DNA of 64,000 bases from positions 62,001 to 126,000 of the forward strand of contig JAHCLO010000010.1 in assembly GCA_026125285.1 (NCBI GenBank). The letters are read 5' to 3'. The notes below the pieces were generated by a model that saw only the letters and a list, made by a program, of their open reading frames with translations, was not told the origin of the DNA and made no database searches. Each line of letters begins with the position of its first letter. Position 1 is the first letter of the stretch. The translations under genes and the position numbers were made by a program. Source of the stretch: Verrucomicrobiia bacterium (lineage in GTDB: Bacteria; Verrucomicrobiota; Verrucomicrobiia; Limisphaerales; JADLHS01). Positions 334 through 45,353 of this stretch are shown piece by piece.

Positions 334-344
334 CTTCACGTCGC

Positions 345-662: not shown

Positions 663-1759
663 AGTATCTCGATGAATATCGCGACGGCGACCTGGCCCGG
701 AAACTGGCCCTTGAGATTCATCGCCTAACAACCCGGCCATGGAACATTATGGAGGTTTGCGGCGGGCAGACCCACGCCATTGTGAAGTTTGGCATTGATG
801 AACTTTTGCCGAAAGCCATCACGCTCATTCACGGTCCAGGTTGCCCGGTGTGCGTCACGCCGTTGGAGATGATTGACAAGGCCCTGGAAATTGCCGCGAA
901 GCCGAACGTCATTTTCACCTCGTTCGGCGACATGTTACGGGTGCCGGGCAGCACGACGGATTTGCTGTCGGTCAAAGCCAGGGGCGGCGACGTGCGGATC
1001 GTTTACTCGCCCTTGGACGCCGTGAAGCTCGCGGAGCAAAATCCTGCCAGGGAAGTAGTGTTCTTCGGCGTGGGCTTTGAAACGACCGCGCCCGCGACGG
1101 CGATGGCGGTGTATCAAGCCGCGCAGAAAGGATTGAAGAATTTCTCCATGCTCATCTCGCACGTGCTCGTGCCGCCGGCAATTGAGGCCCTGATGTCTTC
1201 GCCGGAGTGCCGTGTGCAGGCGTTTCTGGCGGCAGGCCACGTTTGCACGGTAATGGGCTACGAGGAATATCCACCGCTGGCGGCGAAGTATCGCGTGCCC
1301 ATCGTGGTGACGGGCTTCGAGCCGCTGGACATTTTGCAGGGCATCCTCATGTGCGTGCGGCAATTGGAATCCGGCCGCGCCGAAGTCGAGAATCAGTATG
1401 CCCGCTCGGTGCGCCCGGAAGGCAATCGTCCGGCGCAAGACCTGATCCGCAAGGTGTTCAAGGTCGTACCGCGGAAATGGCGGGGCGTAGGGGAGATACC
1501 GCAAAGTGGTTTGGGGTTGAATGACGAATACGCGGGTTTTGATGCCGAAAAGAGGTTTGACCTGACGAGCCATACCGTCGAAGAACCAGCGGAGTGCCTG
1601 AGTGGATTGGTTTTGCAGGGCTTGAAGAAACCGCACGAATGTCCGGCTTTCGGCGGGAAATGCACGCCGGAGCACCCGCTGGGCGCGACGATGGTTTCGA
1701 GCGAAGGCGCGTGCGCGGCGTATTATCGGTATCGGCGGCATCATTGCTCCAACGGATGA
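659..1759 (+). CDS. hypD: HypD, Fe-S scaffold for hydrogenase Fe(CN)2CO assembly
   Basis: HypD assembles the Fe(CN)2CO cofactor together with HypC and HypE. Visible motifs are CGGQTH near residue 35, GPGCPVC near residue 60, the [13 protein letters not shown] loop, and a C-terminal cysteine-rich region ([18 protein letters not shown]...[11 protein letters not shown]) that binds the 4Fe-4S cluster. The length of 366 residues is normal. Start is GTG, overlapping the hypC stop. Odd: the final residues CSNG and the TGA stop lie inside the left arm of a 72-bp palindromic repeat, so the original C-terminus may have been replaced. Confidence 0.96.
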
Positions 1760-1819
1760 AGCGAGCCAACGGATGAAGAACTTGGGGACAAAATCCGTTG
1801 GCACGTTTCATCCGTTGGA
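1748..1819. repeat. 72-bp inverted repeat containing the hypD stop codon
   Basis: The left arm (1748-1774) and right arm (1793-1819) are 27 bp each and match at 25 of 27 positions after reverse complementing; both contain CCAACGGAT twice. The central 18 bp form a loop. The element spans the hypD 3' end and the space before the next gene. It is a REP-like palindrome, different in sequence from the GTAG family seen elsewhere in the window. Confidence 0.8.
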
Positions 1820-1832
1820 ATATAAACTCCGC

Positions 1833-2633
1833 ATGCCGCTTCTCTTTGAAGAGCAAACGCGAGTCGTGCGGCGTTGCCTTTTCGACGTTCACAACGAAGT
1901 TGGCGTTGGTTATCCGGAGGAGGCATATCACGTGGCGTTCTTGATCTGCTGCGCCAAGCGCGGGATTGCCGTCGTCTCGAAACAGGCTGGCCAGCTCTAT
2001 CATCGCGACCAACGGGTTCATACGTTTCAGTACGACGCGCTGGCATTGGAGGAAGTCCTGTTGGAGCTCAAGTCCCTGCCGGGCGGGTTTGCGCAGGAGA
2101 ATTTTTTCCAGATCATCTCCTATCTGAAGTTCTGGCGAAAGTCCCTCGGCCTGCTCGTCAATTTCGGCCAGGACCGGGTGGAAGTGGAGCGCGTGCCGTT
2201 TGAGCCGAAGCCCCTCGTGGTTCGCGAGGACTACGAGCACGTCCGTTCGTTGCTGACGAAAAGTGCCCGAGCGGTGTTGCGGCCAATGCGGGCCGGGATT
2301 CTTACCGTGGCAAAGCAGCACGGGTTGGGCTACGGCGAAAATGTGTGTTCCAAACTGCTGGCGGTCGAATGGCGGCATCTTGGCCTGACAACGCGCCGTG
2401 GATTGTTCAGCACGGTCAGGTTTGAGGAAACCAATGTGGGCGATTTTCCCGTGGATGCGATGTTGGTTGCGGATCAGATCCTGTGTTGCATCAGCGCGTT
2501 GAAGGATGACATCGGTCCCTATGAACTTGGCAAGGCACAAGCCTACCTGCGGGCGCTCGGGTTGCCTGTGGGTTTGACTGTGAACTTCGGCAAGCGAGCT
2601 CTGCACATTCGCGGCGTCCGCGCACCTCAATGA
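1833..2633 (+). CDS. Tandem two-domain GxxExxY protein
   Basis: About 267 residues containing two copies of the GxxExxY fold (a PD-(D/E)XK-like small family of uncertain function). The first copy starts VHNEVGVGYPEEAYH and ends GLLVNFGQDRVEVERV; the second starts AKQHGLGYGENVCSK and ends GLTVNFGKRALHIRGV. Single-domain members are about 120-130 residues, so this is an internal duplication. The first copy keeps G-x-x-E-x-x-Y; the second has GYGENVC, without the final Tyr. I chose the ATG at 1833 because the in-frame start at 1773 would translate the palindromic repeat. It lies inside the hyp operon, between hypD and hypE, with no known role in hydrogenase maturation. Confidence 0.75.
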   Translation: MPLLFEEQTRVVRRCLFDVHNEVGVGYPEEAYHVAFLICCAKRGIAVVSKQAGQLYHRDQRVHTFQYDALALEEVLLELKSLPGGFAQENFFQIISYLKFWRKSLGLLVNFGQDRVEVERVPFEPKPLVVREDYEHVRSLLTKSARAVLRPMRAGILTVAKQHGLGYGENVCSKLLAVEWRHLGLTTRRGLFSTVRFEETNVGDFPVDAMLVADQILCCISALKDDIGPYELGKAQAYLRALGLPVGLTVNFGKRALHIRGVRAPQ

Positions 2634-2727
2634 CGAAACAACCTCCTCAACCGATGCCATGTGCCGATGGGTTTGATTTTGAATATCTTCAACCTTTGGA
2701 ACTGTTCATTCATTGGAGAATCCGGCC

Positions 2728-3765
2728 ATGACGACGAGTTGCCCCATTCCAATCCAGCAATACCCGCACGTGCTGATGGCGCACGGCGGCGGCGGAAGGT
2801 TAATGCATCAATTGCTGGAAACCGTGTTCGGCACGGCGTTCAGCAATCCGATCCTCGATGCGCGGCACGACGCGGCACAATTCGCAGTTCCCCCAGGCAA
2901 GCTGGCGCTGACGACAGACTCCTACGTGGTGCGACCGCTTTTCTTTCCCGGGGGCGACATCGGCTCAATGGCGATTCATGGCACAGTGAACGATCTCGCC
3001 ATGAGCGGCGCGCGTCCGCTTTACCTGAGCTGCGGGTTCATCATCGAAGAAGGGTTGCCGATGGAAACGCTCTGGCGGGTGGTCTGTTCGATGCGCGACG
3101 CGGCGCAACGCTGTGGCGTGCAAATCATCACCGGTGACACCAAGGTGGTGGACAAAGGCAAGGGCGATGGCTTGTTCATCAACACCAGCGGGATTGGTGT
3201 TATCGAACACCCGATGAACATCGCCCCGCAAACGGTGCAGCCCGGGGACGCGGTCATCGTGAGCGGCGATTTGGGCCGGCACGGTATGGCGATCATGGCC
3301 GTGCGCGAGGGCCTGCAATTCGAGAGCACCATCGAAAGCGACTCCGCCCCGGTGCATGAACCGGTGCGGGCCTTGCTGAAGGCGGGAATTGAAATCCACT
3401 GCCTGCGCGATCTCACCCGCGGTGGCTTGGCGAGTGCGCTGAATGAAATCGCCGAAGCCGCGGGAGTGCGTATTGCCATTGAGGAGAAGTTGATTCCCGT
3501 GTGCGAAGCGGTGCATGCCGCCTGCGAAATGTTGGGGCTGGATCCACTGCAGGTCGCCAATGAAGGGCGTTTCGTGGCGTTTATGCCGGCGCCGGCGGCG
3601 GAGCAGGCTCTAGCCATCGTCCGCGAGCATGAAGTTGCCGCCGGGGCCACGCGCATCGGGACGGTTACCGACAAGGGAAACCCGCTGGTCGTTCTGAAGA
3701 GCCGGATTGGGGCGAACCGGATCCTGGACATGCCCAGCGGCGAACAATTGCCGCGGATTTGCTGA
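2728..3765 (+). CDS. hypE: HypE carbamoyl dehydratase, [NiFe]-hydrogenase maturation
   Basis: HypE dehydrates a thiocarboxamide on its C-terminal cysteine to thiocyanate, the CN donor for HypD/HypC. It belongs to the PurM/AIRS ATP-binding family. Motifs seen are [14 protein letters not shown] at the N-terminus, [21 protein letters not shown] (Mg-ATP site), [17 protein letters not shown] and a C-terminus ending PRIC with the required terminal Cys. Start is ATG at 2728, preceded by TTGGAG; a TTG at 2713 would add five residues. The final hyp gene in the window; no hydrogenase structural gene is visible, so it probably lies upstream of position 1. Confidence 0.96.
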
Positions 3766-3996
3766 AGGTTTCCGCGCTGACCGTTTCGGGCGAGCCAGCC
3801 GGTCAAGGCTTTACGATCACTTTGATCGGGAACGAATCTGCCCGCCAACTCACCACCGGAATTTGTTGTCGCCGGAAGGGCAACTTCGAACCCTTGAGAC
3901 GGGCGCCGGCGGGGAAAAGCGATCCCTCCCACCGGGAGTGGCGCGCACAGCAGGGAAGCCCCTGCGGAAGGAGTTGGAGACGGTTTCGTGGTATCT

Positions 3997-4803
3997 TCAT
4001 CGGCTGGTGGTGACTTGTTTCAGACGGAGCCAGTCTGCGTTGTAATGGCTGATGCGCACTTCGGGTGATTGGGTTTTGGGATCGCGCAGCTTGAAGACTT
4101 CCGCGTGGCCATCCGCGAAGTTCAGGCCGTATCCGTGTTGATGCTGGGTGCCGGGAAAACTGGCGAAGGGCCGGCTGTCGTCCATGGTCACGAGAAACCA
4201 CCCGTCATCAATGCTCGCGGCATGTTCGTCGGACATCACCCACAAGGTGGACGGTCCGGCAACGGCGGTTTCGGTGTCGCGGACGAACGTGCGGAAGCCA
4301 GTTTGCCGAGGATAGGACTCCATGTGGCGGCTGCCCATCCAGGAATTCATGGCGTAACTGCGCACGCACGGCACGCCACTGGTGTGCGCGGAATCAGCGG
4401 GACACCGATAGGTGCCGGTCTGGCTGGCGTAGGGATACAGTTTGCCCTGGCGGAGCAACGTGGTGTTGGTGGCTTCGGCAGCAACCTTCAGATTCCCGGT
4501 GACCCAGGAATCGCCGTTGTGGGGTGTCGGCAGGTTCTCCGCCAGTCTGCCCTGGTTGTCGGCGGCATACATTTGGGTGGCGAACGCCAGTTGTCTGAGA
4601 TTGTTGAGGCAACCGGCTTGCTGCCCGCGGGCTTTGGCTTTACTGAGCGCCGGTAGCAGCAGTGCGGCGAGGATGGCAATGATGGCGATCACCACCAACA
4701 CCTCGATCAGGGTGAACCCGCCGCGCCCGACGCAAAAAACTCCGTTCCGCCGAAGCATCTGCGTCACGGTTCGCCGGTCTCTTGATTGCGCGTGTCTGGC
4801 CAT
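3997..4803 (-). CDS. Type II secretion/type IV pilus-like pseudopilin (H-X9-DG family)
   Basis: The prepilin peptidase site and helix [20 protein letters not shown] lies ~30 residues from the start, followed by [25 protein letters not shown], typical of the abundant Verrucomicrobiota/Planctomycetota pseudopilins. The C-terminal [14 protein letters not shown] is the H-X9-DG-type tail. The ectodomain has paired cysteines (residues in YRCPADSA and GVPCVRS). The ATG at 4803 is chosen because GGGAG sits 8 nt upstream; a TTG at 4818 would overlap that site. The gene diverges from the sensor kinase at 4929, leaving ~125 bp for two promoters. Substrate or pilus assignment cannot be made. Confidence 0.85.
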
Positions 4804-4928
4804 CCAGGATTCTCCCAAGTCTTTGCGCTATTCTTACGTCACTTTATCGGTGGCGGGAACTGTGCGTTTGGCCGCACACCCTCCGGCTTCTGGTTGCGTT
4901 GCCGCGGTGGACCGAGAATAATCCCGCC

Positions 4929-7900
4929 ATGACGCCGAAGGGATGGCACCTTCTCATCGGAGCAGCGGTGTTGGCGCTGGCAGAAACCGGTTGGAGCCAA
5001 CCAGCCGCGAACTGGCGCGTCTTCAAGCGGGCAGACGGCCTGCCCGAATCAGTGGGGCTGGCGGTTACCTTCAGTCAACAGGGTAAAGTACTCGTCAAAC
5101 ATCCCAACCTCGATTTCGTCAGCGAACTGGACGGTTACTCGGTGAATGTCATCCCGGCCCCGGACGCAGCCATGCCCCACCGCGTTTATGGCAGCCCGGC
5201 AGGCCAACTATGGACGGTTACTGCCCAAGGCTTGCGCGAGTTTCGGGACGGCAACTGGATGGTTCATCCCGTGGCCGAGATTGGGGAAGCGCTTCGGGCC
5301 GGGATTTCACCTCCGGTGCGGGCCGTGCCGCTTTGTCCGGTTCGGCAAGGCATCGTGTTGGTTTTGCTGCCTGACCGGTTGCTGGAGTTCAATGCGGAAA
5401 CGCCGGACAAGCCGCAGACCCGGGTGCTACGCACGGCGGCGCAGACCGGGATGGGGAGTTTCTCCGGCATGACGTTGGCGCGTGATGGCGGACTCTGGAT
5501 CGCGGGACGGCACGGTTTGACCAAGGTAGCGGGGCCGGTGCGTAACTTGCGACTCGAGAGTGATTGGCAAGAATGGCTGCCACCGGCGTCGGCCGGGTTC
5601 CGCAACCTGCAAGAGCCGTGGGAAGACCCGGACGGCGGCATCACGTTGCTGGCGGAGACTTCGGAAACCGGCCGCAAGCTGGTGGTGCGATTTGACGGAC
5701 AGCATTGGACGGCCATTCCGATGGGCAGCGAGCGCCTTCGGTTTGCCTGGTCCGGCCCGGACCGAAGTCTGTGGGCCGCCAGTATCAATTCCCTGTTTCA
5801 ACGCGGCGCAGGCGAGATGGAATTGACCGAAACCAGTGAACTGGCAGCGCGAAGTTATTTTGATCTGGCCGTCGAACCGAGCGGCGCCTTCTGGCTGGCG
5901 ACTTCCGACGGTTTGTTCCGGTATGCGTTACCGCTGTGGCGCAGCCCGGAGCCGGCCCAAAGAATCAATTCCTTGGTTCACAATTTCGTGGAGGACGTCG
6001 CCGGACGACTTTCTTTCCTTGCCGGTCCCAGCCTGCACCTCCTCGATAATGACCTTCACCGCGAACATCCGCTGCCGGCGAGCGCCGCCGGGATTGGCGC
6101 AACTGTCCAGACGCTGTTTCCGCTCAAGGACGGAAGTCTGCTGTTGGATGCGGGCGATCAGTTGCTCCAATTCCAGCCGGGTACGGGAACATTCACAGTC
6201 CTCGCGCCGACTCCGGGCCAACGTCTGTTCCGTCCTTTGGGTGTGCTGACGGATGGTCGCCTTTGCGTTCTGAATCCGGGCCGCGCAGCCGAATCGGTGG
6301 ACGCCCGGTTGGAGGCGTTTGATGGCCGGAATTTCGAGACGCTGCCGTATTCGTTGCCGGAGGCAGTGGATTTCGCCCGCCCACTCCGCCTGTTCATGGC
6401 CCGCAATGGGGACCTGTGGCTGTACGGCGAGGCGGGGATCGCGTGGTGTCACGAGCGAAAATGGCGGAGTTTTCCGGTCGGGGACAGCACCGTGCCCGAA
6501 GACGCGCAAGGCTTCATGGAAATGCCCGATGGTCGAATCTGGTGCGCTTCGCCGGATCGCGTCTGGGAATTTGACGGTAAAGACTGGCTGACGGTGCGGA
6601 GCGGTTTCGATCACGTCAACCATCTGCTGCGCGGCCGCGACGGCAGCGTGTGGGTGGCCACCAACAGCGGGCTGCACCGGTTTCGTCAAGGAGCCTGGAT
6701 CGAGAACGGATTGGAAGAGGGTCTGCCCGGCGCGAATGTGCGCGAGGTGTACGAAGACCGGCGTGGACGCTTGTGGGCGGGCACGACTCACGGCCTGAGT
6801 CTCTACCATGCGGACGCCGACCCCGACCCCCCGCAGACCCAGATTCAATCGCGCACCGAACTGGAAAACCTGATCCCGGAAGGCGGCACCATCACGATCA
6901 ATTTCAGCGGCCAGGACAAGTGGAAGCATACGCCCCGCAATCGGTTGTTGTACTCCTACTGGCTGGACGAGCGCGATTGGTCGCCCTTCCAGGAAGCCAC
7001 CACCGTTTCCTTCACGGATCTGCCGCCGGGCAAACATTACTTTCAGGTTCGCGCCATGGACCGCAACGGCAACGTTGACCCCAAACCCGCGAAGCTGGAA
7101 TTCGCCGTCGCGCTGCCCTGGTTCAAAGAGCCCCGCTTGCTCTACATTTCGCTCGCCGGCCTCGCGGTGGCGCTGTTCTTTGCCGGTCTCGCCTTCAATC
7201 GTCACCGGCAGTTGTTGCGCAGCTACGCTGAAGTCGAACGGAAGGTCGCCGAACGCACGCAAGAACTGGAACGGGCCGGGCGCGAACTGTTGCATAGCCA
7301 GAAGATGAACGCCCTCGGCACGCTTGCCGCCGGCCTCGCCCACGATTTCAACAACATCCTCTCCATCGTCAAAGGCTCGGCGCAGATCATCGAGGACAAC
7401 CTGGACAAGCCGGAGAAGATTCACACCCGCGTGGACCGCATCAAGATGGTGGCCGACCAGGGCGCGGGCGTCGTGAAGGCGTTGCTCGGCTTCAGTCGCG
7501 ATTCTGCCCGCTCCCCGGCAGCGTGCGACCTGAACGCCGTGGTGGACGACACGCTTAAGCTGCTCGGTGACCGGTTCCTGCGCGAGGTGGAAATCCGTTT
7601 TGAACGCGCGCCGGATTTGCCGGAGGTAACGGTCATCCGCGACTGTGTTCAGCAGATTCTGCTTAACTTCATTTTCAACGCCGCCGAGTCCATGACCGAC
7701 CGCAAACGGGTGGTCGTCACGACGCGGCGGTTGGATTCCCTGCCCGCGGGCACGGTGCTGGCGCCCGCGACAACCAAGAACTACGTCACCATCTCCGTCC
7801 AGGATTTCGGCTGCGGCATTTCCCCGGAGCATCTCCCGCGCATCTTTGAGCCGTTCTTTACCACCAAGGCCCTCTCCACCCGGCGCGGCACCGGCCTGGG

Positions 7901-34700: not shown

Positions 34701-35221
34701 AGCCCGACACCCTCCTCCGCTGCCGTACCGCCCTGCGCTGGTTGCTCGGCGGATTGATGCTCTGGGCGGCCGTGTCCAAGCTGGCCGCGCCGACGGAATT
34801 CCTCGGCGCGATTTACTCCTACCAACTGCCGCTGCCGCAAGCGTGGCTGCAAGCCGCGGCCGTGGTGCTGCCGTGGTTGGAACTGCTTTGCGGACTCGCT
34901 TTGATGGCCGACAAATGGACGGAATCGGCCCTGACGCTCGTGCTGGGCTTGTGCGTGGTTTTTGTGCTGGCCACGGGTCAGGCCTGGCTGCGCGGGCTGG
35001 ACATCTCCTGCGGTTGCCTGGACTTCAGAATTCTTGGGGTGGTCAAACCAGCCGGCAATGCCATGAGTTTCTTCGAGTCCGCCGCCTTTGCTTTCTTCCG
35101 GGCCCTCCTGCTCGTGGCGATGACCGGATGGCTGCTGCGCCACCGACTTTCCGAAGTGACCACGCCGGATAGGACCCAAGCCGCAACTGAAACTGTTTCA
35201 ATCCGCGCCCCGCTCACGTGA
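34697..35221 (+). CDS. MauE/DoxX-like four-helix membrane protein
   Basis: 174 residues with about four membrane helices (WLLGGLMLWAAVSKLAA; WLQAAAVVLPWLELLCGLAL; ALTLVLGLCVVFVLATGQAW; FFRALLLVAMTGWLL) and an SCGCL motif near residue 115, typical of MauE/DoxX proteins linked to thiol redox. Overlaps the rhodanese gene by 4 nt. The last eight residues (VSIRAPLT plus the stop) are encoded by the first 27 bases of the outermost CRISPR repeat, so the native 3' end may have been replaced when the array formed or moved. Confidence 0.8.
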   Translation: MKPDTLLRCRTALRWLLGGLMLWAAVSKLAAPTEFLGAIYSYQLPLPQAWLQAAAVVLPWLELLCGLALMADKWTESALTLVLGLCVVFVLATGQAWLRGLDISCGCLDFRILGVVKPAGNAMSFFESAAFAFFRALLLVAMTGWLLRHRLSEVTTPDRTQAATETVSIRAPLT

Positions 35222-35447
35222 GCGGGGCGACGCGTCGGCCGGGTCTTTGGTGTCCACGCAAAGGCCGTTTCAATCCGCGCCCCGCTCACGTGAGCGGGGC
35301 GACGCGGCCACGGATTGACCGATCTCGCGAAGGATGAACGTTTCAATCCGCGCCCCGCTCACGTGAGCGGGGCGACCACTGTCTCACGCCCGAATCTGAG
35401 CGGACCGCAGGTTTCAATCCGCGCCCCGCTCACGTGAGCGGGGCGAC
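35195..35447 (-). CRISPR. Type I-C-like CRISPR array, 4 repeats and 3 spacers
   Basis: Four identical 37-bp repeats at 35195-35231, 35267-35303, 35340-35376 and 35411-35447, with spacers of 35, 36 and 34 bp. On the minus strand the repeat starts GT, then a perfect 24-bp palindrome (half-site CGCCCCGCTCAC), then CGGATTGAAAC, the I-C type 3' end. The 11 bases after the stem equal the usual 11-nt Cas5c-generated 5' handle. This orientation puts cas2 and the leader on the right, so new spacers should enter at 35447. Identity of all repeats, even the distal one, suggests a young or recently contracted array. Confidence 0.97.
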
Positions 35448-35634: not shown

Positions 35635-35925
35635 TCACAAGATTAAAGGCTCGGTGAGGTCCACGGGTTTCTGATTGCCATGATGTTCGATTTTACTTTT
35701 GGCCGTTTCGTCCAGATGGTAGAAGCGCAACGAGTCTTCATCAGCCTTGATTTCCCGGAGCAACCGGTCCTTGAGTTGCACCCACTCGGTCTGGCCGACC
35801 TGGCACTCAAAAACGCTTTTCTGGACGCGCACGCCGTAGTCTTCGCACGCGCGGGCGACGCGGCGCAACCGGCGCTGACCGGCCTTCTCAACGGTGGAAA
35901 CATCGTAGGTGACAAGGATAAGCAT
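35635..35925 (-). CDS. cas2: Cas2, spacer acquisition
   Basis: 96 residues, normal for Cas2. The N-terminus MLILVTYDVSTVEKAGQRRL has the conserved Asp after beta-1; VRVQKSVFECQVGQTEWVQL is the second signature. Forms the Cas1-Cas2 integrase core. Located 36 bp after cas1, with one copy of the dispersed GAGATTTGAGATTCC-type repeat in between, and next to the leader side of the array as usual for I-C systems. Confidence 0.95.
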   Translation of the reverse strand: MLILVTYDVSTVEKAGQRRLRRVARACEDYGVRVQKSVFECQVGQTEWVQLKDRLLREIKADEDSLRFYHLDETAKSKIEHHGNQKPVDLTEPLIL

Positions 35926-35961: not shown

Positions 35962-37054
35962 TCACTTGGGGACGAACGGAAGGTAGTCCGCCAAATCCCC
36001 GCGCAGGTAGCGCGCCAACACGCGCGCTTGCACGAATGGTAATTGCGCGACGCGGAATTCCTGCTCGAGGAGCGGGTGCGTGAGCCGTTCCTGCTTGCGT
36101 TCCTGATACGCCTTGATGACGCGCTTGCGTCCCGCATCGGTAAACTCGACCGCGCCACCCTCGCGCAACTTGAAATCGTCCGGGCCAATTTGCTGCCGGT
36201 TGATCAAAGTGACGGCCAGGCGGTCAGCCAGCCAGGGGCGAAACTCCTCCATCATGTCCAGCGCCAATGCGGGACGATTCGGGCGCTCGGCATGGAGATA
36301 ACCGACAAACGGGTCCAAGCCGATGCTCGTCAGCGCGGCAATGCAATCGTGCCGGACCAAAGCGTAAAGGAAACTGAGCAGACAGTTGATGCGGTCGCGG
36401 GGCGGGCGGCGGCTCCGCGTGGTGAAGCTGAAATCGTCACGCTGCTGTTTGAGCAAGAGGGCAAACACCCCAAAGTAGGTGGCGCCACCCATGCCTTCCG
36501 CACCGCGCAGTTCATCAATCTGAGATGTACGGTCTGAGATTTCAAATTCCGCCAGCCGGCGGATTTGCCGGGCGAGCGCGTCGGTGGCTTCGCCGATTTG
36601 AGCTTTCAGATTCGCGCGCGCCGCGCAAGAGACTGTTGCGGCTGTTCTGGAGTTTGCCCGCGATGATCTGCCGGGTGATGGCGGCGCACTTGGCCGGGTC
36701 GTCGGCCGCGCGGAACTGGGCGCGGCGCAGGGTCACGCTGGTGTCGGCTACCCCCGTCAGGCGCGCTTGCAGGTAACCGGACTCACTCAGAAAATTCACC
36801 GCCACGCCGTTCTCCCAGCACAAATCCAGCGCCGGCGGACTGATAGTGCTTGGCCCGAAAACACAGATGGATTCGAGATGATGGATGGGGATGCTCAGGG
36901 ATTTGAAATTTGAAATTTCAGACTTCAGATCTTCCGCGGTCGCGGGCGAGCCGTCGGGCCGCAGCGGCACCTTGACCTGCAAGGTCAGGTGGTCGCGCGC
37001 AACGTATGTGCCCGGCGTGGTCAGGTAGAGAGTGTTTTGGGCAATATCGGGCAT
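35962..37054 (-). pseudogene. cas1: Cas1 integrase, full length but frameshifted
   Basis: Two frames together give a whole type I-C Cas1. The first (37054 to ~36620) starts MPDIAQNTLYLTTPGTYVAR and runs to IAGKLQNSRNSLLRGAR; the second (~36625 to 35962) goes on as ANLKAQIGEATDALARQIRR, IDELRGAEGMGGATYFGVFA and ends LRGDLADYLPFVPK. Metal ligands are present: Glu in LRGAEG, His in GYLHAERP and the acidic ALDMMEEF. The shift lies in a GC-dinucleotide run (36613-36626), as expected from loss of one GC unit or a sequencing or assembly error. The gene also holds in-frame copies of the dispersed repeat (DLKSEISNFKS, FEISDRTSQI). If the shift is real, acquisition is probably lost. Confidence 0.9.
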
Positions 37055-37069
37055 CAGGGATTTGAAATT

Positions 37070-37351
37070 TCAGATTTGAGATTTGAGATTGTCACCCGGC
37101 AGGTTCGGCGCGCAAAACAGCTTCGCAAACAACTCCTCCGCCCGGCGCACGCCTTCCTCCGTGAGCACGACCGATTTGGCCTTGCCCACCGGGTCGCTGA
37201 TGTAGCCCTGGGCATGCAGGCGAGCCAAGGCGTCCCAATCGTGACCCTTCCAGGCGCGAGTGACTTTGAAAGGTGGGCGGCCCTCGGTGAAGCTGGTCAG
37301 ATGCAGGAGCGCCAGCACCGCATCATCAATCTTGTCGAGATCGGGTTTCAT
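37070..37351 (-). CDS. DUF6429 family protein inside the cas operon
   Basis: 93 residues: DKIDDAVLALLHLT, ARAWKG-like segment TRAWKGHDWDALARLHAQGY and SDPVGKAKSVVLTEEGVRRA match the small winged-helix-like DUF6429 family, of unknown function. It is on the cas strand, between cas1 and the four-helix-bundle gene, 15 bp before cas1. The last residues (DNLKSQI) are encoded by the dispersed repeat, so the C-terminus is probably altered. It could be a passenger or a DNA-binding accessory; nothing here decides. Confidence 0.75.
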   Translation of the reverse strand: MKPDLDKIDDAVLALLHLTSFTEGRPPFKVTRAWKGHDWDALARLHAQGYISDPVGKAKSVVLTEEGVRRAEELFAKLFCAPNLPGDNLKSQI

Positions 37352-37400: not shown

Positions 37401-37928
37401 TCAGATGAGGCCCTTTTCCTCGGCCTCCTTGCGTTTGGGATGCCAGGCGGGCAGATGGCGGAGCAACGTCACGTTCAACGCCGCTGCCCGTTTCTTCCTG
37501 TCGTCCTCCGCGCGCGACTTGTCGGTCAAATGCCGCTGGCCCTGGATATCGGAGTTTTGCAGCGAGTCCGCCCAGCCGCGCAACTGGCGGGAGCACGACT
37601 CAGCCACAGATTTGAGATTTGAGATTTCTGATTTCAGATTGGCCGGCCACCGCGATTTCTCGGCCCGGCGCAATTTCAATGTGAGCAGCGAGCGCACTTC
37701 GCCGGCCGAGCCGCGCGCGATGTAGATGAACGCCAGCAGTTCGTTCGTGGTGCCACGCTCGAAGCCCTCGGCGATGTTGTTGGAAACGGAGAGGCTGGCG
37801 CGGTCCAGTTGGTCGCGGAAGCCGCGCGTGGCCTGGAACGCCTCGTTGTCCAGCAGGTCTTCGGTCAATTCATACAGTTCGGCGGCCTTCTGCCACACGG
37901 GCAGGTCTTCAAACGATTTGTAGGTCAT
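37401..37928 (-). CDS. Four-helix bundle protein (S23/IVP/bAvd-like) inside the cas operon
   Basis: 175 residues. The first ~90 (SFEDLPVWQKAAELYELTED, FRDQLDRASLSVSNNIAEGF, ELLAFIYIARGSAGEVRSLL) are a classic four-helix bundle protein of the 23S rRNA intervening-sequence/Avd family. The family is normally ~120 residues; here a repeat-derived NLKSEISNLKS lies in frame and a basic tail follows (DKSRAEDDRKKRAAALNVTL). The family is known from rRNA IVSs and, as Avd, from diversity-generating retroelements; no reverse transcriptase is in this window. It separates cas4 from cas1 on the same strand. Confidence 0.85.
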   Translation of the reverse strand: MTYKSFEDLPVWQKAAELYELTEDLLDNEAFQATRGFRDQLDRASLSVSNNIAEGFERGTTNELLAFIYIARGSAGEVRSLLTLKLRRAEKSRWPANLKSEISNLKSVAESCSRQLRGWADSLQNSDIQGQRHLTDKSRAEDDRKKRAAALNVTLLRHLPAWHPKRKEAEEKGLI

Positions 37929-38003: not shown

Positions 38004-38693
38004 TCAAATTTGAAATAGCGAGCGGGCCAGCCGCTCTGCCCGGCTGTCCGCCGCGGTCGCCTTGGGCAGACAGATTTCGTAGAGCGAACATGCTTCGCAG
38101 GCCGGCTTGAACACCGCCGCCGGAACGCGTTGGTCATTCATCAACCCGTGAAGCTCACGCACCGTTGCCTCCGTCCGCCGGCGCAACGCAACGGTGAACT
38201 CGACTTCGCGGCGCCGCTTGCTGTCCGCATGAAACACCGCGCCACACGGGATGGAAGCGTTGAACATCTCCTCCAGGCAAAGCGCATGGGCGCAGAGTTG
38301 CACGTCGTCATTCTCCCATTGGCGGCGTTTGCCGACTTTGAACTCGACGGGGAACAACGAGCCAATCCCTCGCCCATCGGATGGGAGAGGGTGGCCGGAG
38401 GACGGGTGAGGTCGAACTTCCACGATATCGCACTTGCCGTTCAATCCCATCCGCTCAGACCACACGGGCAACGCCCGCAAAAGCGTCGCCCCTTTGACCA
38501 CCTCGTAGCCCGCCAGGTCCGAATGTTCGTGGACGATGTCACCACGGGCAGTGTGCTCGTTGGCTGAACGCCAACCTTCCACGAGCTTCAACGCCGCGCG
38601 ACGTGGGCAGTAGAGATAATCGTTGAGGAGCGAGAGCGGGAGTTGCTCGCGCGACTCTGAAATCTGGGATTTTGAATTTTCGATTGGCGTCAC
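38004..38693 (-). CDS. cas4: Cas4 exonuclease with an in-frame hairpin-element insertion
   Basis: 229 residues. Cas4 is a RecB-type Fe-S nuclease that trims prespacers and sets PAM. Seen: first cluster Cys in NDYLYCPRRAAL, motif Asp in LNGKCDIVEV, the E-x-K in FPVEFKVGKRR, the Q motif DDVQLCAHALCLEE and C-terminal cysteines in CEACSLYEICLP. Start is GTG; residues 4-16 (IENSKSQISES) come from the dispersed repeat. Between the D and ExK strands are ~18 extra residues (RPHPSSGHPLPSDGRGIGSL) encoded by a 45-bp hairpin element. The catalytic motifs remain, so activity may survive. Confidence 0.93.
   Translation of the reverse strand: MTPIENSKSQISESREQLPLSLLNDYLYCPRRAALKLVEGWRSANEHTARGDIVHEHSDLAGYEVVKGATLLRALPVWSERMGLNGKCDIVEVRPHPSSGHPLPSDGRGIGSLFPVEFKVGKRRQWENDDVQLCAHALCLEEMFNASIPCGAVFHADSKRRREVEFTVALRRRTEATVRELHGLMNDQRVPAAVFKPACEACSLYEICLPKATAADSRAERLARSLFQI
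38366..38410 (-). repeat. 45-bp hairpin element, copy 1 (in cas4)
   Basis: Matches copy 2 (45045-45089, opposite strand) at 42 of 45 positions. Inner stem CCCATC-C-GATGGG, outer CCCTC/GAGGG. Two of the three differences from copy 2 are compensatory across the stem. Confidence 0.9.
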
Positions 38694-38899: not shown

Positions 38900-39763
38900 T
38901 CACAACAGTTCCAGCAATTCGATTCCCGCCGGCAACCCGTCGCGATTGATTTTCAGGTGCGGCCTGTAATCGGTGAAGTCGCGCGCGGGCGGCAGGTCTT
39001 TGGGCCGCTCGATGGTCACGCGCTCGAACAGCTTGTGCGCGGGGGCATTGCCGAGCATTGACTGGTGTTTGAAAACGATGAGCTTCTGCGGTGACATTGT
39101 GCCGCGCGAGGCGGAGCGGTCGTGATCGAACATTTGCGAGAGTGCCTGCCAGAACAGTTCGAGGTCGGCTTCGCTGAAGCCGGTTTCTTTCGCGAGGTGC
39201 GCGCTGATGAAGCCGTGGCAGCGGTAGAGGCCGTAGGGGATGAGGTTTTTGCGGCCCATGGTTTGGTTGGGCGCATCGGCTTCTTTGGCTTCGGTCACAG
39301 CCATGCGGGTGATGCTCAAGTCGAGCGGCAGAATGGGATCAATGCTGCGGCTAAAACTGAGTTGCACCGGGCCGCGGACCTGGCCCGCATTTGAGCCAGT
39401 GGACATGACAGCGCCGAAGGTGCGGACATCGTAGAAGCGTTTGCACATTTCGGCGCGAGCGGATTGAACCTGTTTGCGGTCGGCGGTTTTCTTTTTGCCA
39501 TCCACGTCATTTCCAGCGGCTTTGTGGCCGTCGAGAATCTTGTCGTTCAACACCGAGCCTTGCTGCACGAAAATGTCGAAGGGCGGTTGGCCGTTTTTCG
39601 CGAGCAACGCGAAGTTCCGAATCTTGCGCTTGAGGCAGACATCGGAGACGAGGCCGTGCATGTCCTGGGGATCAATGCGCGGGGAATTGGCGGCATCGGG
39701 ATCGCCGTTGGGATTGCCGTCTTTGCAGTCGAAGAGATAAACGAAGTCGTAGCGGTTGTTCAT
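38900..39763 (-). CDS. cas7: Cas7 (Csd2), type I-C Cascade backbone
   Basis: 287 residues. Starts MNNRYDFVYLFDCKDGNPNG then DPDAANSPRID, the Csd2 signature; RFYDVRTFGAVMSTGSNAGQ, GPVQLSFSRSIDPILPLDLS and TRMAVTEAKE follow, with YGLYRCHGFISAHLAKETGF in the second half. Multiple copies coat the crRNA spacer. ATG 39763 is chosen because upstream in-frame codons are low-quality basic sequence overlapping cas8c. Cas8c ends 52 bp before, and a repeat copy lies in between. Confidence 0.96.
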   Translation of the reverse strand: MNNRYDFVYLFDCKDGNPNGDPDAANSPRIDPQDMHGLVSDVCLKRKIRNFALLAKNGQPPFDIFVQQGSVLNDKILDGHKAAGNDVDGKKKTADRKQVQSARAEMCKRFYDVRTFGAVMSTGSNAGQVRGPVQLSFSRSIDPILPLDLSITRMAVTEAKEADAPNQTMGRKNLIPYGLYRCHGFISAHLAKETGFSEADLELFWQALSQMFDHDRSASRGTMSPQKLIVFKHQSMLGNAPAHKLFERVTIERPKDLPPARDFTDYRPHLKINRDGLPAGIELLELL

Positions 39764-39815
39764 AATTTTGTTATTTGTTCGATTTGAGATTTGGAATCGC
39801 TGATTTTCGATAGGG

Positions 39816-40238
39816 TCAAACGGCGGCGGTTTGTTCGGCTTTGGCTTCGGCTTCCTTCCGCTCGGCTGTGCGCCGGCGGTATTCAGCCTTCTGGTGGTAG
39901 TAGCCGAGCGCGAAACGGCCCTGACCTTCGAGGTCGAGCGTGGCGGGGAATTCATTACCAAGCGCAGTGGCAATCGCCTCGAAATCCTTTTGCGCGTTGA
40001 TTGCTTTGCCCTTTTTCCACCCGCCCTCGCCCTCGGCTTTAGCACTGTGAAATTGAGCGTTGCGGAACAATCGGCCCATCACCAACGCGGGCGTGGTGCT
40101 GGCGCTGGCGTAGTATCGTTCGACGACGCCAGCGTTGACGTTGTTGAGTGCGGCGCTTTGAAGTTCATCAAAGACCGCAAACAAGCGACCGCATAGGTAC
40201 GCGGGATCACTGGATTCGGAATTCAGACATTCAGTCAT
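39816..40238 (-). CDS. cas11c: Probable internal Cas11c small subunit
   Basis: Type I-C systems are known to make a small subunit, Cas11c, from an internal start in cas8c. Here an in-frame ATG at 40238 starts MTECLNSESSDPAYLCGRLF and gives 140 residues, ending at the cas8c stop. The segment SDPAYLCGRLFAVFDELQSA is just where the helical C-terminal domain begins. Upstream is GAAAG about 9 nt from the ATG, a weak ribosome site. Inferred by analogy with the known arrangement. Confidence 0.55.
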   Translation of the reverse strand: MTECLNSESSDPAYLCGRLFAVFDELQSAALNNVNAGVVERYYASASTTPALVMGRLFRNAQFHSAKAEGEGGWKKGKAINAQKDFEAIATALGNEFPATLDLEGQGRFALGYYHQKAEYRRRTAERKEAEAKAEQTAAV

Positions 40239-41615
40239 GGTTTCATCTTTCGTTTGGATGTTGTTGTTTTGTGAATTGGGAGTACGGAGCAGGCAGGCTT
40301 TGATGAGAGCCAGGCGCGCGACAATCACCGCATTTCGGAGGGCATCCTCGCCTTTCGGTTCGATTTGTTGCCGCTTCAATGCTGCGGCCAGAGCCGATTG
40401 AGGCAAGGGCGTCCCACGCAACGCCGCATGAAGCAATTGGGTGGAAACTTGCGGCGGAAGTTCGTCCAATTCTTTGCGCACCATGCCGAACAGCAGCGCA
40501 TAGAATTTGAAATCGCGTTTCACCCCCACCCCATCCGGTGATACGATACCGAGGTCTTCAAACCATTCCGCGACGTGCTGCCGAACTTCGGGCACGGTGC
40601 TTTCGAGCCAATCGCGCACCATCACGCGTGCGCCGTTGCCGGAGAGGCTGAGGGCGTAATAGGCGTTGTCGTCGAAAGCGGCTGGGGTTTGCCCGGTGTG
40701 AACGGATTTCAGGAGCGAGGCGACGGCTTGTTCATCGGCGGTGGCCAGAATATCGAACGGGTCGTAATCCAGCGGCTTGCGGGTCCAGTGGAGGTGAACC
40801 GTGTTATTGAACACCAGTTTTTGGGCGCGGCTCTTTTCGATGAGGGTGTTGAGCGCGGACCGAATCTTCAATTCGGCGGGCGCGGACAACGCGGCGTTTT
40901 GCGCCTGCTCCAATCCGAACGAGCAAAATGAGTCTTTATCGAAGCTGATGAGGTTTGTGCCAGTGGCGAGGCCGCCGGGCACGCCCTTGATTTTCTCCGT
41001 CGTGTCGAGGGTTTCCGCGAATTCACCCGTGGCGAGGCAGATGCGCTGGCTGCGAGGCTTCGTTCCTCCAGCGGATTGGCTGCGGCGTTTGCGCCAGAAA
41101 TTCTTGAGGCTTTCGGCGTCCAACAGATTCCTGCCATCCACGGAGAACGTGGCGTTATCGGAGGGCTTGGCCTTGGCCGTGGATAGTTGGCGGTGAAGTT
41201 CCGCCACGCCCGGCGCGTTGCGCAGAAACGAAAGCACGGCCTGCAACTTGCCCGACTCATCCGGGCAAGCGATGGCTGCTTCTTCCAGCAATTTCTGGAA
41301 ATAGCCATGCTGAACGCGCCGGGCTTCCGCCTTTTCCGCCGCCTTCGGATCCAGCCACAGCGTGGCGCGCTCCAATGTATCGCAGAGAAAATGCGACTTC
41401 GTGCCTTGATTGAGTTCGTTCGGAGAAGTGAACGGGCGGATCAACACTTTGGGGCGCGGCTTTTTGTCATCGGGATTCTCCACCAGCGGAATTGGCCCGC
41501 CAGCGAGATTGCCGGAACGATCCAGCGGGATGAGCCAGCGGACGGCGACGCCTTCAAAATTCGCGTCCCCGAGGTTTTCGCGTTCCGCGTAAGCAATGAG
41601 GGCTTGGAGCATCAT
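39816..41615 (-). CDS. cas8c: Cas8c (Csd1), type I-C large subunit
   Basis: About 599 residues. Starts MMLQALIAYAERENLGD then WLIPLDRSGN; KSHFLCDTLERATLWLD, CLATGEFAETLDTTEKIKGV, LISFDKDSFCSFG and YYALSLSGNGARVMVRDWLE are typical of Csd1. Cas8c recognises PAM and recruits Cas3. ATG 41615 follows AAGGAG by 8 nt; upstream in-frame codons translate a palindrome. The C-terminal ~140 residues form a separate helical domain that can also be made alone from an internal start (see 39816-40238). Confidence 0.96.
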   Translation of the reverse strand: MMLQALIAYAERENLGDANFEGVAVRWLIPLDRSGNLAGGPIPLVENPDDKKPRPKVLIRPFTSPNELNQGTKSHFLCDTLERATLWLDPKAAEKAEARRVQHGYFQKLLEEAAIACPDESGKLQAVLSFLRNAPGVAELHRQLSTAKAKPSDNATFSVDGRNLLDAESLKNFWRKRRSQSAGGTKPRSQRICLATGEFAETLDTTEKIKGVPGGLATGTNLISFDKDSFCSFGLEQAQNAALSAPAELKIRSALNTLIEKSRAQKLVFNNTVHLHWTRKPLDYDPFDILATADEQAVASLLKSVHTGQTPAAFDDNAYYALSLSGNGARVMVRDWLESTVPEVRQHVAEWFEDLGIVSPDGVGVKRDFKFYALLFGMVRKELDELPPQVSTQLLHAALRGTPLPQSALAAALKRQQIEPKGEDALRNAVIVARLALIKACLLRTPNSQNNNIQTKDETMTECLNSESSDPAYLCGRLFAVFDELQSAALNNVNAGVVERYYASASTTPALVMGRLFRNAQFHSAKAEGEGGWKKGKAINAQKDFEAIATALGNEFPATLDLEGQGRFALGYYHQKAEYRRRTAERKEAEAKAEQTAAV

Positions 41616-41635
41616 GGCTGTTTCTCCTTTTCGTT

Positions 41636-41704
41636 GTAGCAGCCGACGTGAGTCGGCTCTGACTGAAGACCGGTGCGTTGGAGCGGACTCACGTCCGCTG
41701 CTAC
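41636..41704. repeat. 69-bp GTAG...CTAC palindrome between cas5c and cas8c
   Basis: The left arm starts GTAGCAGCCGACGTGAGTCG; the right arm is its reverse complement with two differences (ends ACTCACGTCCGCTGCTAC). It lies just upstream of the cas8c ribosome site. Same GTAG-headed plan as the RAYT-linked elements but another stem family. Confidence 0.88.
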
Positions 41705-41718
41705 AGGGGAATGGGATT

Positions 41719-42435
41719 TCACACCGCACCTCCGAGTTGAGGTTTCATTTCGTTCCAATCGGGCACGTTCACTACGCCGTCTTTGAGTTTGGCGGGGAAA
41801 AAACTGATGCGCGGCACGGGCTTTTCCACTTTGCCGGGCGGCTGGTTCTGGGCCACGTCGAGATTGAACACGTCGTAAAGCATGAGGCCGAGGTCAGTGT
41901 CGGGATTCAGGCCGGGGGCGACGCGCATGGCGGATTCGTCGGCCAGTTCGAAGTGCGCCGGGAACTCGCGGCAGCCAAAGCAGGGCTGGGCAAAGCATTG
42001 GCCCTTCTCGGCGCGGCGCTGAAACATGGCGAGATATTTCACCAGTGAATCGTCGCCGTGATCCTCGTCATTGGCGGGAACGCGGCGCGGCAGACCGGCC
42101 AGCGGCGTCAGGTGGAGGCTGGCTTCGATTATGTATTCCACGTCGCGGAGAGCGAGGGTGTTGCGCTGGGTGCGGTCATCGTCGGCCAGCAATGGCTCGG
42201 GTTTGCGGGGCGAGAGGCGGGACTTCACTTCGTTGCGCCGGAAGGCGAGAAAGCGGACGGGCTTCTTCACGGCAATGCGCCGGATGCGCCAGCGGAATTG
42301 CGGTTTGTAGAGGATGGCTTCCAGCAAGCCGCGGGCGGCGCTGGGCGTGATAACGGCGTAGCTCACGCGTTCCACTTTCATTTCGGGCCGGGTGAAACAG
42401 GCGAGGTCGCCCCAGGTGCGGAGATGGATGGTCAT
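41719..42435 (-). CDS. cas5c: Cas5c (Cas5d), crRNA-processing subunit
   Basis: 238 residues. In type I-C systems Cas5 cuts the pre-crRNA, replacing Cas6, and caps the 5' handle. Seen: MTIHLRTWGDLACFTRPEMK, VSYAVITPSAARGLLEAIL, VRFLAFRRNEVKSR, QRNTLALRDVEYIIEASLHL and CFGCREFPAHFEL. No cas6 is present, consistent with this role. ATG 42435 is chosen because the family starts there; the frame extends to 42498 and would overlap cas3. Cas3 ends 13 bp before. Confidence 0.94.
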   Translation of the reverse strand: MTIHLRTWGDLACFTRPEMKVERVSYAVITPSAARGLLEAILYKPQFRWRIRRIAVKKPVRFLAFRRNEVKSRLSPRKPEPLLADDDRTQRNTLALRDVEYIIEASLHLTPLAGLPRRVPANDEDHGDDSLVKYLAMFQRRAEKGQCFAQPCFGCREFPAHFELADESAMRVAPGLNPDTDLGLMLYDVFNLDVAQNQPPGKVEKPVPRISFFPAKLKDGVVNVPDWNEMKPQLGGAV

Positions 42436-42448
42436 AAGTTTTATCGAG

Positions 42449-44737
42449 TCATTGGCAAAAGGCGCTGGCGTCGAGATGCCCGAGGCCAAGGTTGTCATCG
42501 TAATCCGAATTCCAGACCCAGAAGTTCCAATCCTCGGCGGGCTGGTAGATGTAGCCCCTGGCCTGCGCCTCGAAGAATTCGCTTTGATACAGATTCACGC
42601 AGTAGCGCTGCGCTTCGCGACATTCGGGGGCAGTCAGGTGTTTTTGCTTCTCCAGTTTTTCCGCCAGTTCCGCGCCGCGTCTCCACTTCACGAGGACGGC
42701 GCGGGTTTCGTTGCCGACCAACTGGCACGCTTGCGCGGCCTTGGGAAAATTAAATTCTTCGCTCGCGGCAAACACCGGATCGTCCTGGCGCGATTCCGGG
42801 CCGAGCAAACCGTAGAGTTCCGCAAAGTATTCGGCATAGAACGACGGCTGGTGAATCCTTGATTGCGCCCCGGCAAAGCGGGCGAGGAAACTTTCCGTAA
42901 TCTTCATCACCTGCTCATAGCCCTTGGGCAAATGCCCGCCGTCCTTGGGCCGGAACACGATCACCGGGCAGGGTGCGGCGTGGTGGCCTTCGCGATTGCA
43001 GCGCCCGTCGCTTTGGATGATGGAATCCAGCGGGCCAAGCGCGCGAAACGCGATGGGAAAATCCACGTCCACGCCCGCTTCGATGAGTTGGGTGGAAACG
43101 AGGCGGCAAGGTTTGCCATCCGCCAAGCGGACGCGGACAGCTTGCAGTTTTTCCTGGCGATGCGCCGGACACAGGCGCGCGGACAGGTGGAAGGCGGATT
43201 GCGGCCCGACCTGTTGCACCAGGCGGAATAGTTCGCGCGCGTCTTTGGTGGTGTTCACGACGCACAACGATTGAGGAACGGCGGTCAGCTTTGCGGCGAG
43301 ATCAGGCCAGGAGATTTCTTCATGCGGTTGCGGAAGCTGGATGTGCGTGCGCCGTAGAGTTTCCGCCATTGCGCCCGGATTGGATGAAATTTCCACCGGC
43401 TTCCAATCGTAGGGCAAGGCTTTGCCGGCAGTGGCAAAGGCGGGTTGCGTCGCAGTCATGAAAACCGCGCTCACCCCATAATCCCGCACCAGCAAGCTCA
43501 CGCCGGACAACAGCGAGGGAACAAGCCGCGGCGGCAGCGTTTGCACTTCATCGAACAGAACCACCGAACGCCCAATGTTGTGAAGTTTGCGACAATCCGA
43601 CGGGCGATTGCTGAACAGACTTTGGAAGAACTGCACATTGGTAGTGACCACGAGCGGCGCCGCCCAGTTTTCCGCAGCAAGCCGGGCGCGCCGCAGGCGT
43701 TCGGCTTCGGCATCGCGGCCTTGATCCTCCTTCCGTTCGCGCGGGGCGACGGCGCTGTGATGCTCCAGCACAAAGTCCGGGCCGAACCCCGGCTCAAACA
43801 GTTCGCGATAAACGCGGGCGGTTTGCTCGATGATGCTCGTGAACGGAATCACCACAATGATCCGACGGAAGCGGCGGGGATCGTTTTCCGGCAACCGGGC
43901 GTTGTGATGAACGATGTGTTGCAAGGCGAAGGCGAGCGAAGCCAGCGTTTTGCCGCTGCCGGTGGGCGCGGTGAGCGTGAACAGGCCGGAAGGTTTTGTG
44001 GCAACACTCAAGCAGTCGTGGAGCAGTTGCTTGCGCAGCGCATTGACCGAACCGTCCGCCGGCTTGGCCTCCAAGCACTGGCGAAGGAGCTGTAAAGCGC
44101 GTTCCGGCTGAAGCTCGGGAACGATTCGCTGGGCAGTCTGGCTCGCGTTAAAATGTTCCTCGGTGTCGAGAAAGTCCGCGTCAACCAAGCAACTGAAAAG
44201 CATCCGAGTGCGGAGTGCTTCTTCAAAGCGCTGTTGCTTCCCAATGGGGCGCGGTGCTAATGAAGGCAGACTCAGACCGTCGTGATTGAATCGCGCCAGC
44301 AGAGTGGCGATGTCTTCAGGGCATTGGCCGGTTAGCTCCAACCGGCGGGTGGAGTCGGCAAAATTCGCAACGGTCTGACGCAATGGCGTTCCCAAATCGG
44401 CTTCGCTCAACGCGGGAATTCCGGTGTGATGACCGTCCGCAGCGAATGCTACCGCCCAAGCTTTCAGCGCGGCAGCATGAGCTGTCCCCGCAGCCCAATG
44501 ATTGATGCCGTGAATGGCGGGATTGCGAAGTCGCGCTTGAAAGCGCCCGGCATATTTCCCTAAATCGTGCAGCAGTCCGGCTAACTCGGCTTCCGCCCCG
44601 AGGCCGAGCGGCACGGCGAATTCTTGGGCCAACTCCGCGACGTTTCGGAGATGCACATCCAGTGGCTGCCACTTGCCGGAGTGTTCAGGCAGTGGCCTGC
44701 CAAATCCATCATTAGCGGTGTGCGCGTAGAACTTCAT
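42449..44737 (-). CDS. cas3: Cas3 HD nuclease-helicase
   Basis: 762 residues. N-terminal HD domain (EHSGKW; AGLLHDLGKYAGRF; AADGHHTGI), then the DExD/H helicase with Walker A TLTAPTGSGKT, motif II VVLFDEVQTLPP, motif III FMTATQPAF and motif VI QSDGRCNREGHH. Cas3 is recruited by Cascade and degrades the target strand. All nuclease and helicase motifs look intact, so interference should be possible. Lies between the extra cas5 (13 bp before) and cas5c (13 bp after). Confidence 0.96.
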   Translation of the reverse strand: MKFYAHTANDGFGRPLPEHSGKWQPLDVHLRNVAELAQEFAVPLGLGAEAELAGLLHDLGKYAGRFQARLRNPAIHGINHWAAGTAHAAALKAWAVAFAADGHHTGIPALSEADLGTPLRQTVANFADSTRRLELTGQCPEDIATLLARFNHDGLSLPSLAPRPIGKQQRFEEALRTRMLFSCLVDADFLDTEEHFNASQTAQRIVPELQPERALQLLRQCLEAKPADGSVNALRKQLLHDCLSVATKPSGLFTLTAPTGSGKTLASLAFALQHIVHHNARLPENDPRRFRRIIVVIPFTSIIEQTARVYRELFEPGFGPDFVLEHHSAVAPRERKEDQGRDAEAERLRRARLAAENWAAPLVVTTNVQFFQSLFSNRPSDCRKLHNIGRSVVLFDEVQTLPPRLVPSLLSGVSLLVRDYGVSAVFMTATQPAFATAGKALPYDWKPVEISSNPGAMAETLRRTHIQLPQPHEEISWPDLAAKLTAVPQSLCVVNTTKDARELFRLVQQVGPQSAFHLSARLCPAHRQEKLQAVRVRLADGKPCRLVSTQLIEAGVDVDFPIAFRALGPLDSIIQSDGRCNREGHHAAPCPVIVFRPKDGGHLPKGYEQVMKITESFLARFAGAQSRIHQPSFYAEYFAELYGLLGPESRQDDPVFAASEEFNFPKAAQACQLVGNETRAVLVKWRRGAELAEKLEKQKHLTAPECREAQRYCVNLYQSEFFEAQARGYIYQPAEDWNFWVWNSDYDDNLGLGHLDASAFCQ

Positions 44738-44750
44738 CAGCGGGCTAGGT

Positions 44751-45353
44751 TCAATTCATCCCATTCAGCATCTGGTCGAACACCATCCGCAGCATGGTGG
44801 GCAGTTCGTGGTTCTCGGTTTCGCAGACGCGCGTCTCCGGGCGAAACGGACCAACATAGTCAGGCGCGAATTCCTTCCAACCCAGGCAGGGCGTGTAAAA
44901 CCATTGCCCGCGATCCAAGGCGCGATTGAAAACGTCGTGATAGGCGTGCGGCGGCCAGGTAGTGCCGTCGTGATGCCCGGCAAACTCGGCTTGCGCGTAA
45001 AGGCGGTAGCACACGTTGACCAGCACCACGGTGTAAGACCTACCCTCACCCGGCCTCCGGCCACCCTCTCCCGTCCGACGGGCGAGGGAATACGACGCGC
45101 CCTTGTTCATCGCGTCGCTGGCGCGCAACGGCCCGCCGTAATTCGTAGTGTAGCGATGGAATTGCACCGGCGCGCAAATCTCGACTCTTGTAGGCCGCAC
45201 ATTCACCGATTTCCAGCGCAGCACGGATTCAAAGATGCCCTTGACCGCGCTGAACGTGGGCGCGACATACGACACGGGCGACGAGCCGGTGTCGGGCCGC
45301 GTCCATATCGCGGTCGGGCCGGAGATTTCGAGTTGGATCGGATACGGTTTCAT
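44751..45353 (-). CDS. Second, divergent Cas5-family protein at the head of the cas operon
   Basis: 200 residues, clearly related to Cas5c in the same operon. IQLEISGPTAIWTRPDTGSS aligns with the Cas5c HLRTWGDLACFTRPE; VSYVAPTFSAVKGIFESVL with VSYAVITPSAARGLLEAIL; CAPVQFHRY with KKPVRFLAF; and YTPCLGWKEFAPDYVGPF with AQPCFGCREFPAHF. It is ~40 residues shorter than Cas5c. A 45-bp hairpin element is translated in frame (SLARRTGEGGRRPGEGRS) just before the conserved strand YTVVLVNVCYRLYA. It is the first gene of the operon, 13 bp before cas3. A canonical I-C operon has one cas5. It may be a processing partner, an alternative Cascade subunit or an inhibitor-like decoy; the sequence does not say. 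Confidence 0.85.
   Translation of the reverse strand: MKPYPIQLEISGPTAIWTRPDTGSSPVSYVAPTFSAVKGIFESVLRWKSVNVRPTRVEICAPVQFHRYTTNYGGPLRASDAMNKGASYSLARRTGEGGRRPGEGRSYTVVLVNVCYRLYAQAEFAGHHDGTTWPPHAYHDVFNRALDRGQWFYTPCLGWKEFAPDYVGPFRPETRVCETENHELPTMLRMVFDQMLNGMN
45045..45089 (+). repeat. 45-bp hairpin element, copy 2 (in the second cas5)
   Basis: Inner stem CCCGTC-C-GACGGG, outer CCCTC/GAGGG. Relative to the host gene it is inserted opposite to copy 1 in cas4, so different reading frames of the element are translated, both open. Confidence 0.9.

Follow-up and report, generated by a model that had tools for sequence, protein, structure and literature searches.

What is a second cas5 gene doing at the head of a type I-C-like operon that has a cas5c of its own? 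The question is raised by the 64,000-nucleotide stretch of Limisphaerales DNA analysed here (the window), in which a minus-strand open reading frame with an ATG start, encoding 200 aa and hereafter called cas5x, lies just upstream of cas3. An earlier note, made from the sequence alone, had inferred from this arrangement a distinct I-C variant in which the divergent Cas5 may have a role of its own.

The operon and its two Cas5 proteins

On the minus strand the genes follow the order cas5x, cas3, cas5c, cas8c, cas7, cas4, ORF175, ORF93, cas1, cas2 and array. The canonical I-C set (cas3, cas5c, cas8c, cas7) is complete, as it is in type I-C systems such as that of D. vulgaris (PMC7684278), from which the window differs by the foreign cas5 stub at the operon head. 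Two effector modules are distinguished below: module A, the canonical cas3-cas5c-cas8c-cas7, and module B, which consists of cas5x, a large cas8c, cas7 and cas3. The features are as follows.

44751–45353, minus strand: cas5x stub, the Cas5 of a variant I-C (module B) effector (PF09704), leading the operon
45037–45090, minus strand: 18-aa in-frame insertion SLARRTGEGGRRPGEGRS in cas5x, a short interspersed palindromic repeat
44738–44772, minus strand: putative exchange junction, with the end of cas5x homology, the stop codon of the stub and a 13-nt gap to the cas3 ATG
42449–44737, minus strand: cas3 helicase-nuclease, first gene of canonical module A (PADLOC Cas3c, E 2e-187)
41719–42498, minus strand: cas5c, the canonical Cas5 of the operon (TIGR01876, 149 bits)
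39816–41729, minus strand: cas8c/csd1 reading frame, true start probably internal (TIGR01863, E 1.6e-95)
38900–40045, minus strand: cas7/csd2 reading frame, true start probably near 39757 (TIGR02589, E 2.7e-110)
38004–38693, minus strand: cas4, with repeat element, first gene of the adaptation module that was probably kept (PADLOC Cas4c, E 7e-64)
37401–37928, minus strand: 23S rRNA intervening-sequence-type protein, a passenger between cas4 and cas1 (PF05635, E 2.2e-20)
37070–37351, minus strand: DUF6429 small protein, a passenger (PF20008, E 4.8e-32)
35962–37054, minus strand: cas1, split by a frameshift, both frames combined spanning a full Cas1
35635–35925, minus strand: cas2, 70–90% identical across Limisphaerales loci with both effector kinds
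35195–35447, minus strand: CRISPR array in which the 37-nt repeat GTCGCCCCGCTCACGTGAGCGGGGCGCGGATTGAAAC occurs 4 times

The presence of a second, divergent Cas5 before cas3 is confirmed. The protein scores 47.8 bits against PF09704 (Cas_Cas5d; cut-off 23, E 2.3e-12) and thus stays within Cas5/RAMP, in line with the earlier note; it is also matched by the PADLOC Cas5c profile (E 8.4e-22) and, by sequence, by solved Cas5c chains (3vzi, E 4e-12). As for TIGR01876, the NCBIfam profile of canonical Cas5c with a cut-off of 85 bits, cas5x reaches only 39.3 bits and the full-length Cas5 of locus L004 likewise only 46.7, and the operon's own Cas5c passes. The alignment of the two window proteins along their length, also pointed out earlier, is real but weak (26–29% identity). 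The L004 Cas5 is 95% identical to cas5x over residues 1–183, and relatives found by a contig scan of genomes from other Limisphaerales are 80–88% identical and head another kind of operon. A single copy is present in the window's genome. Judged by sequence, cas5x is a genuine Cas5 and not a copy of the operon's Cas5c.

The window copy is not complete. Compared with full-length copies (207–217 aa), about 25 C-terminal residues are gone, including the conserved V.KGVL.Y strand, which leaves the Cas5 domain unfinished. The structural comparison with Cas5 proposed in the earlier note gave an I-C Cas5 fold for the full-length L004 relative: the best Foldseek matches of its model (pLDDT 70) are the I-C Cas5 chains 8g9s, 3vzi and 8dej, with E values from 1e-11 to 1e-9, and the last strand of this model falls in the segment absent from the window copy. 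Cas5c is the pre-crRNA endonuclease, cleaving the repeat with an active site of Tyr/Lys/His type; in the alignment the cas5x family has H-A-Y at the positions of canonical K-H or K-Y. The 18-aa insertion is found in none of the full-length copies, and the same site is occupied in the stub of locus L021. The GC-rich palindromic element that forms it also lies in frame in cas4 (38367–38391), and its core has 7 exact copies in the genome, versus 0 for a reversed control pattern.

Regarding the remainder of the locus, the cas1 frameshift lies near mid-gene, and the split therefore means that adaptation may be dead in the window locus, or else an assembly error. The PF05635 protein is an odd cas-operon passenger that occurs between cas4 and cas1 or elsewhere in both A and B loci (window, L005, L006, L012, L035, L036, L056; 62–87% identical). 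The DUF6429 protein adjoins cas1 and is about 72% identical to its copies in the module-B loci L004 and L005. No Rfam RNAs were found within the locus. The genome also has a second CRISPR system, type I-E-like and with a long array (L071, contig 12); the idea that cas5x belongs to it was rejected, as that set has its own Cas5.

Module B and the remnants at other loci

At L004, cas5x is followed by a 731-aa Cas8c (PADLOC PDLC01562, E 4e-121), a divergent Cas7 and a divergent Cas3, and then by cas4-cas1-cas2. Thus, the distinct two-Cas5 variant suggested earlier is not supported: about a dozen Limisphaerales loci have a module B with cas5x as its only Cas5, and so, in a more divergent form, have L015 and L017. 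The I-C variant with the large Cas8c would be the source module of cas5x, of which the window retains the clipped cas5 alone. In the order-wide profile search canonical Cas5c proteins scored at most 58 bits, which set them apart from full or nearly full cas5x. Among the genomes sampled from the phylum, only 2 outside Limisphaerales have strong cas5x matches; assemblies labelled Clostridiales and Synergistaceae contain B modules of greater divergence, and those labelled Methanocalculus and Formivibrio contain partial ones. The module-B Cas8 has no match in the window's genome, a search made without a positive control and hence weak, and on this result the idea of a partner module B at another site of the genome was rejected. 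Viral contigs and plasmids gave no match for cas5x as mobile cargo. The A and B loci have repeats of one 37-nt class; the window repeat has a longer stem than the 32-nt repeat of locus L061. Between genomes, both ends of the 37-nt repeats are constant and the stems vary, mostly by complementary changes.

Window and L004 DNA are homologous in the array with cas2-cas1, in cas4 and in cas5x (84%), with no homology between these segments. Pieces of cas5x stand before module A in the window (residues 1–182), L014 (1–188), L019 (with an internal deletion), L020, L021, L056 (1–78), L057 (1–51) and L058 (1–78). No full-length cas5x precedes cas3 in the loci examined. A near-complete one before a complete A operon is found in the window and L014 only, L050 has one before a broken cas3, and most other remnants before canonical cas3 are stubs or fragments of 55–118 aa, so the survey of cas3 neighbourhoods did not bear out the proposed recurrent two-Cas5 order.

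The reverse arrangement is common. A stub lies directly upstream of module B in 11 of 14 loci, derived in 9 from cas3A or cas5A and in 2 from cas5x (L006, L053). The cas3A stub comprises the first ~59 residues (L004, L007, L011; weaker in L048), and the first part of canonical cas5 is present in L008, L010, L012, L013 and L050. None of the 15 control A loci (L030–L044, 3 of them with <1.5 kb of upstream sequence) has an upstream stub. Since cas5x itself served to find the A loci that contain it, the share of stubs among A loci is biased; the share of A stubs among B loci is free of this selection bias.

Some loci preserve layers. L004 and L006, which are sisters on the adaptation tree (100/100), have in common a contiguous cas3A stub and cas5x piece (1–178), after which L006 continues with a different cas5x'-cas8-cas7 and regains homology to L004 inside cas3B; these layers and the different effector would record two successive replacements. 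In L014 a cas3B remnant, with 69% identity to the L053 cas3 over residues 1–91 and further C-terminal pieces, lies between the A module and cas4, and this position on the right of the A module indicates that the latter sits inside a former B module. To the right of the window cas7 nothing convincing of cas3B was detected (one match of 23% at E 0.001 was discarded). Mapping the A and B labels onto the cas1-cas2-cas4 tree takes 5 changes, and the labels cluster no more than expected by chance; for instance, L032, an A locus, has as its sister (100/99) L011, a B locus that bears a cas3A stub. Related adaptation modules thus stand beside different effectors with identifiable breakpoints, which is the pattern of in situ effector-module replacement. 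The comparison of loci indicates that module exchange gave rise to the two-Cas5 layout, which is not a conserved architecture and does not stem from a lone duplication. Besides a profile match outside Cas5/RAMP, the earlier note had named against itself a lone recent duplication with no such layout elsewhere; the duplication does not apply given the 95% match to another module's Cas5, and the missing conservation of the layout does hold for the surveyed loci.

The most crowded arrangement is seen in L020 (positions 1–5342, the same as L059), where at least 5 cas5x pieces, 2 cas3A starts, a cas3B piece and a cas5c start precede an intact cas3, interspersed with small genes that by eye appear toxin-antitoxin-like. 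In L050 (5650–6030) a frameshifted remnant of cas5x stops directly ahead of the start of a gene resembling, by eye, a YhcG/DUF1016 nuclease, so stubs adjoin non-cas genes too. The L019 and L021 records are titled Akkermansia muciniphila; they seem identical to contigs from genomes classed in the window's order, and the titles are therefore probably wrong.

Origin and possible role of the clipped gene

The second Cas5 is very likely what remains of the first gene of a former B effector module, perhaps kept as a translated leader reading frame. In Limisphaerales, modules A and B swap for each other before one common cas4-cas1-cas2 module and array. Sequence comparison shows that in the window lineage an A effector took the place of a B effector; the left breakpoint lay close to the 3' end of cas5x, which left a 3'-clipped cas5x as the first gene. 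We are highly confident of the origin by module exchange, and an exchange scar is the best explanation of the truncation, the insertion and the lack of a detected partner Cas8 in the genome. As for the leader role, the spacing fits translational coupling and we hold the matter evenly balanced. The stub may bring a promoter and ribosome entry, with translation stopping just before the cas3 start, and its persistence would follow from this supply. The protein itself would then be dispensable, and the homology of the stub may favour later swaps.

The reading frames bear on this role. The stop codon of the stub frame falls −4 to +30 nt from the next ATG at 19 of 21 junctions, compared with 19 of 42 control cases read in the other two frames (Fisher P about 8e-4, a statistic that is overstated since the junctions share ancestry and are not all independent). 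Internal deletions in the L019 and L012 stubs are in frame, which fits the translated-leader idea. Pairwise dN/dS of the window cas5x against full-length copies is 0.05–0.12, similar to that of full-length pairs, and its identity to L004 along the gene is 82–100%; its unique changes are few, most of them at the insertion edge, with ~3 amino-acid changes elsewhere. These values mean that the gene was recently orphaned, has been refreshed by recombination or is still selected. The L014 stub is near-neutral, with 28 unique nonsynonymous and 13 synonymous changes, versus 4 and 12 for full-length L051. L021 has the same junction and insertion as the window in a decayed locus with a much more diverged cas3 start; the junction therefore already has some age, and this speaks against a very recent origin.

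The little-decayed state of the window copy fits a recent swap or recombination refreshment, but also selection on the protein, and a working second Cas5 has to be weighed accordingly: the stub would bind or cut the repeat, cap an alternative Cascade with canonical Cas7 and Cas8c, or compete with Cas5c as a regulator. The intact frame, preserved across the insertion, the low dN/dS, and the single repeat class of A and B loci, to which Cas5x would already be adapted, speak for such a protein. Nevertheless, it lacks the C-terminal V.KGVL.Y strand, the genome gave no match for a module-B Cas8, the comparable L014 stub evolves almost neutrally, and most stubs before cas3 are 55–118 aa remnants that cannot be a Cas5. 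The functional second Cas5 of the earlier note is therefore unsupported for the clipped copy; this reading is not favoured and we regard it as unlikely. Somewhat better placed, though still the lesser possibility, is a pure scar without any role, readable because of a recent swap or recombination refreshment. It agrees with the truncation, the repeat insertion, the few unique substitutions and the visible decay of other stubs, but does not account for the tendency of stub frames to stop at the next start codon despite internal deletions or insertions (L019, L012), nor for a junction common to the diverged L021.

The remaining explanations concern how the arrangement arose. A chimeric assembly, with a fragment of module B fused to an A operon, is very improbable: the assembly is a draft and the cas1 frameshift suggests that its sequence may not be flawless, but the locus is well away from the ends of its 194-kb contig, junctions of the same kind are seen in other assemblies (L014, L019, L020, L021, L056, L057), and L021 even has the insertion of the window. 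Least credible of all is that the operon's own cas5c was recently duplicated in this one place; the two Cas5 proteins can be aligned over their length, but this reading was rejected because their 26–29% identity is too low against 95% to another module's Cas5 in other genera.

A bolder extension of the preferred leader reading can be offered only tentatively, namely that the stubs are functional adaptors, serving both as translated leaders and as homology docks, and that the Limisphaerales I-C locus is a switchable effector slot. Effectors would be exchanged there repeatedly while the adaptation genes and the memory array stay. In its strongest form, the clipped Cas5x itself would still modulate crRNA processing or Cascade assembly.

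Relation to known module exchange

In situ effector replacement, in which the adaptation module stays and the boundaries can be placed at nucleotide level, has been described for I-A, I-B, I-D, I-U and types III and IV (PMC5704561; PMC6452270), and the proposed pressure behind it is escape from anti-CRISPRs (PMC6452270). In PMC5704561, I-C is reported to be compact in the Cas4 tree and falls outside the same-subtype search. The Limisphaerales loci resemble these published cases in the fixed adaptation module and the effector genes exchanged in place; they differ in that both of the exchanged effectors are I-C kinds, and in the layered, coding gene stubs that remain on the 5' side. No I-C operons with two cas5 genes were found in the open-access literature. 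The case thus appears to be a new variant of a known process, new within I-C and with recurrent coding stubs.

For annotation, an extra cas gene heading an operon may be a scar and not a new subunit. The 37-nt repeat set with its varying stems is suited to asking which Cas5 reads which stem. Leftover stubs recur across Limisphaerales and would record the history of module exchange as ordered layers, telling which effector replaced which next to one adaptation module and array. Such layers would make effector exchange, with its proposed role in anti-CRISPR escape, directly testable: whether the same crRNAs serve both the new and the old effectors, and whether these effectors differ in sensitivity to anti-CRISPRs.
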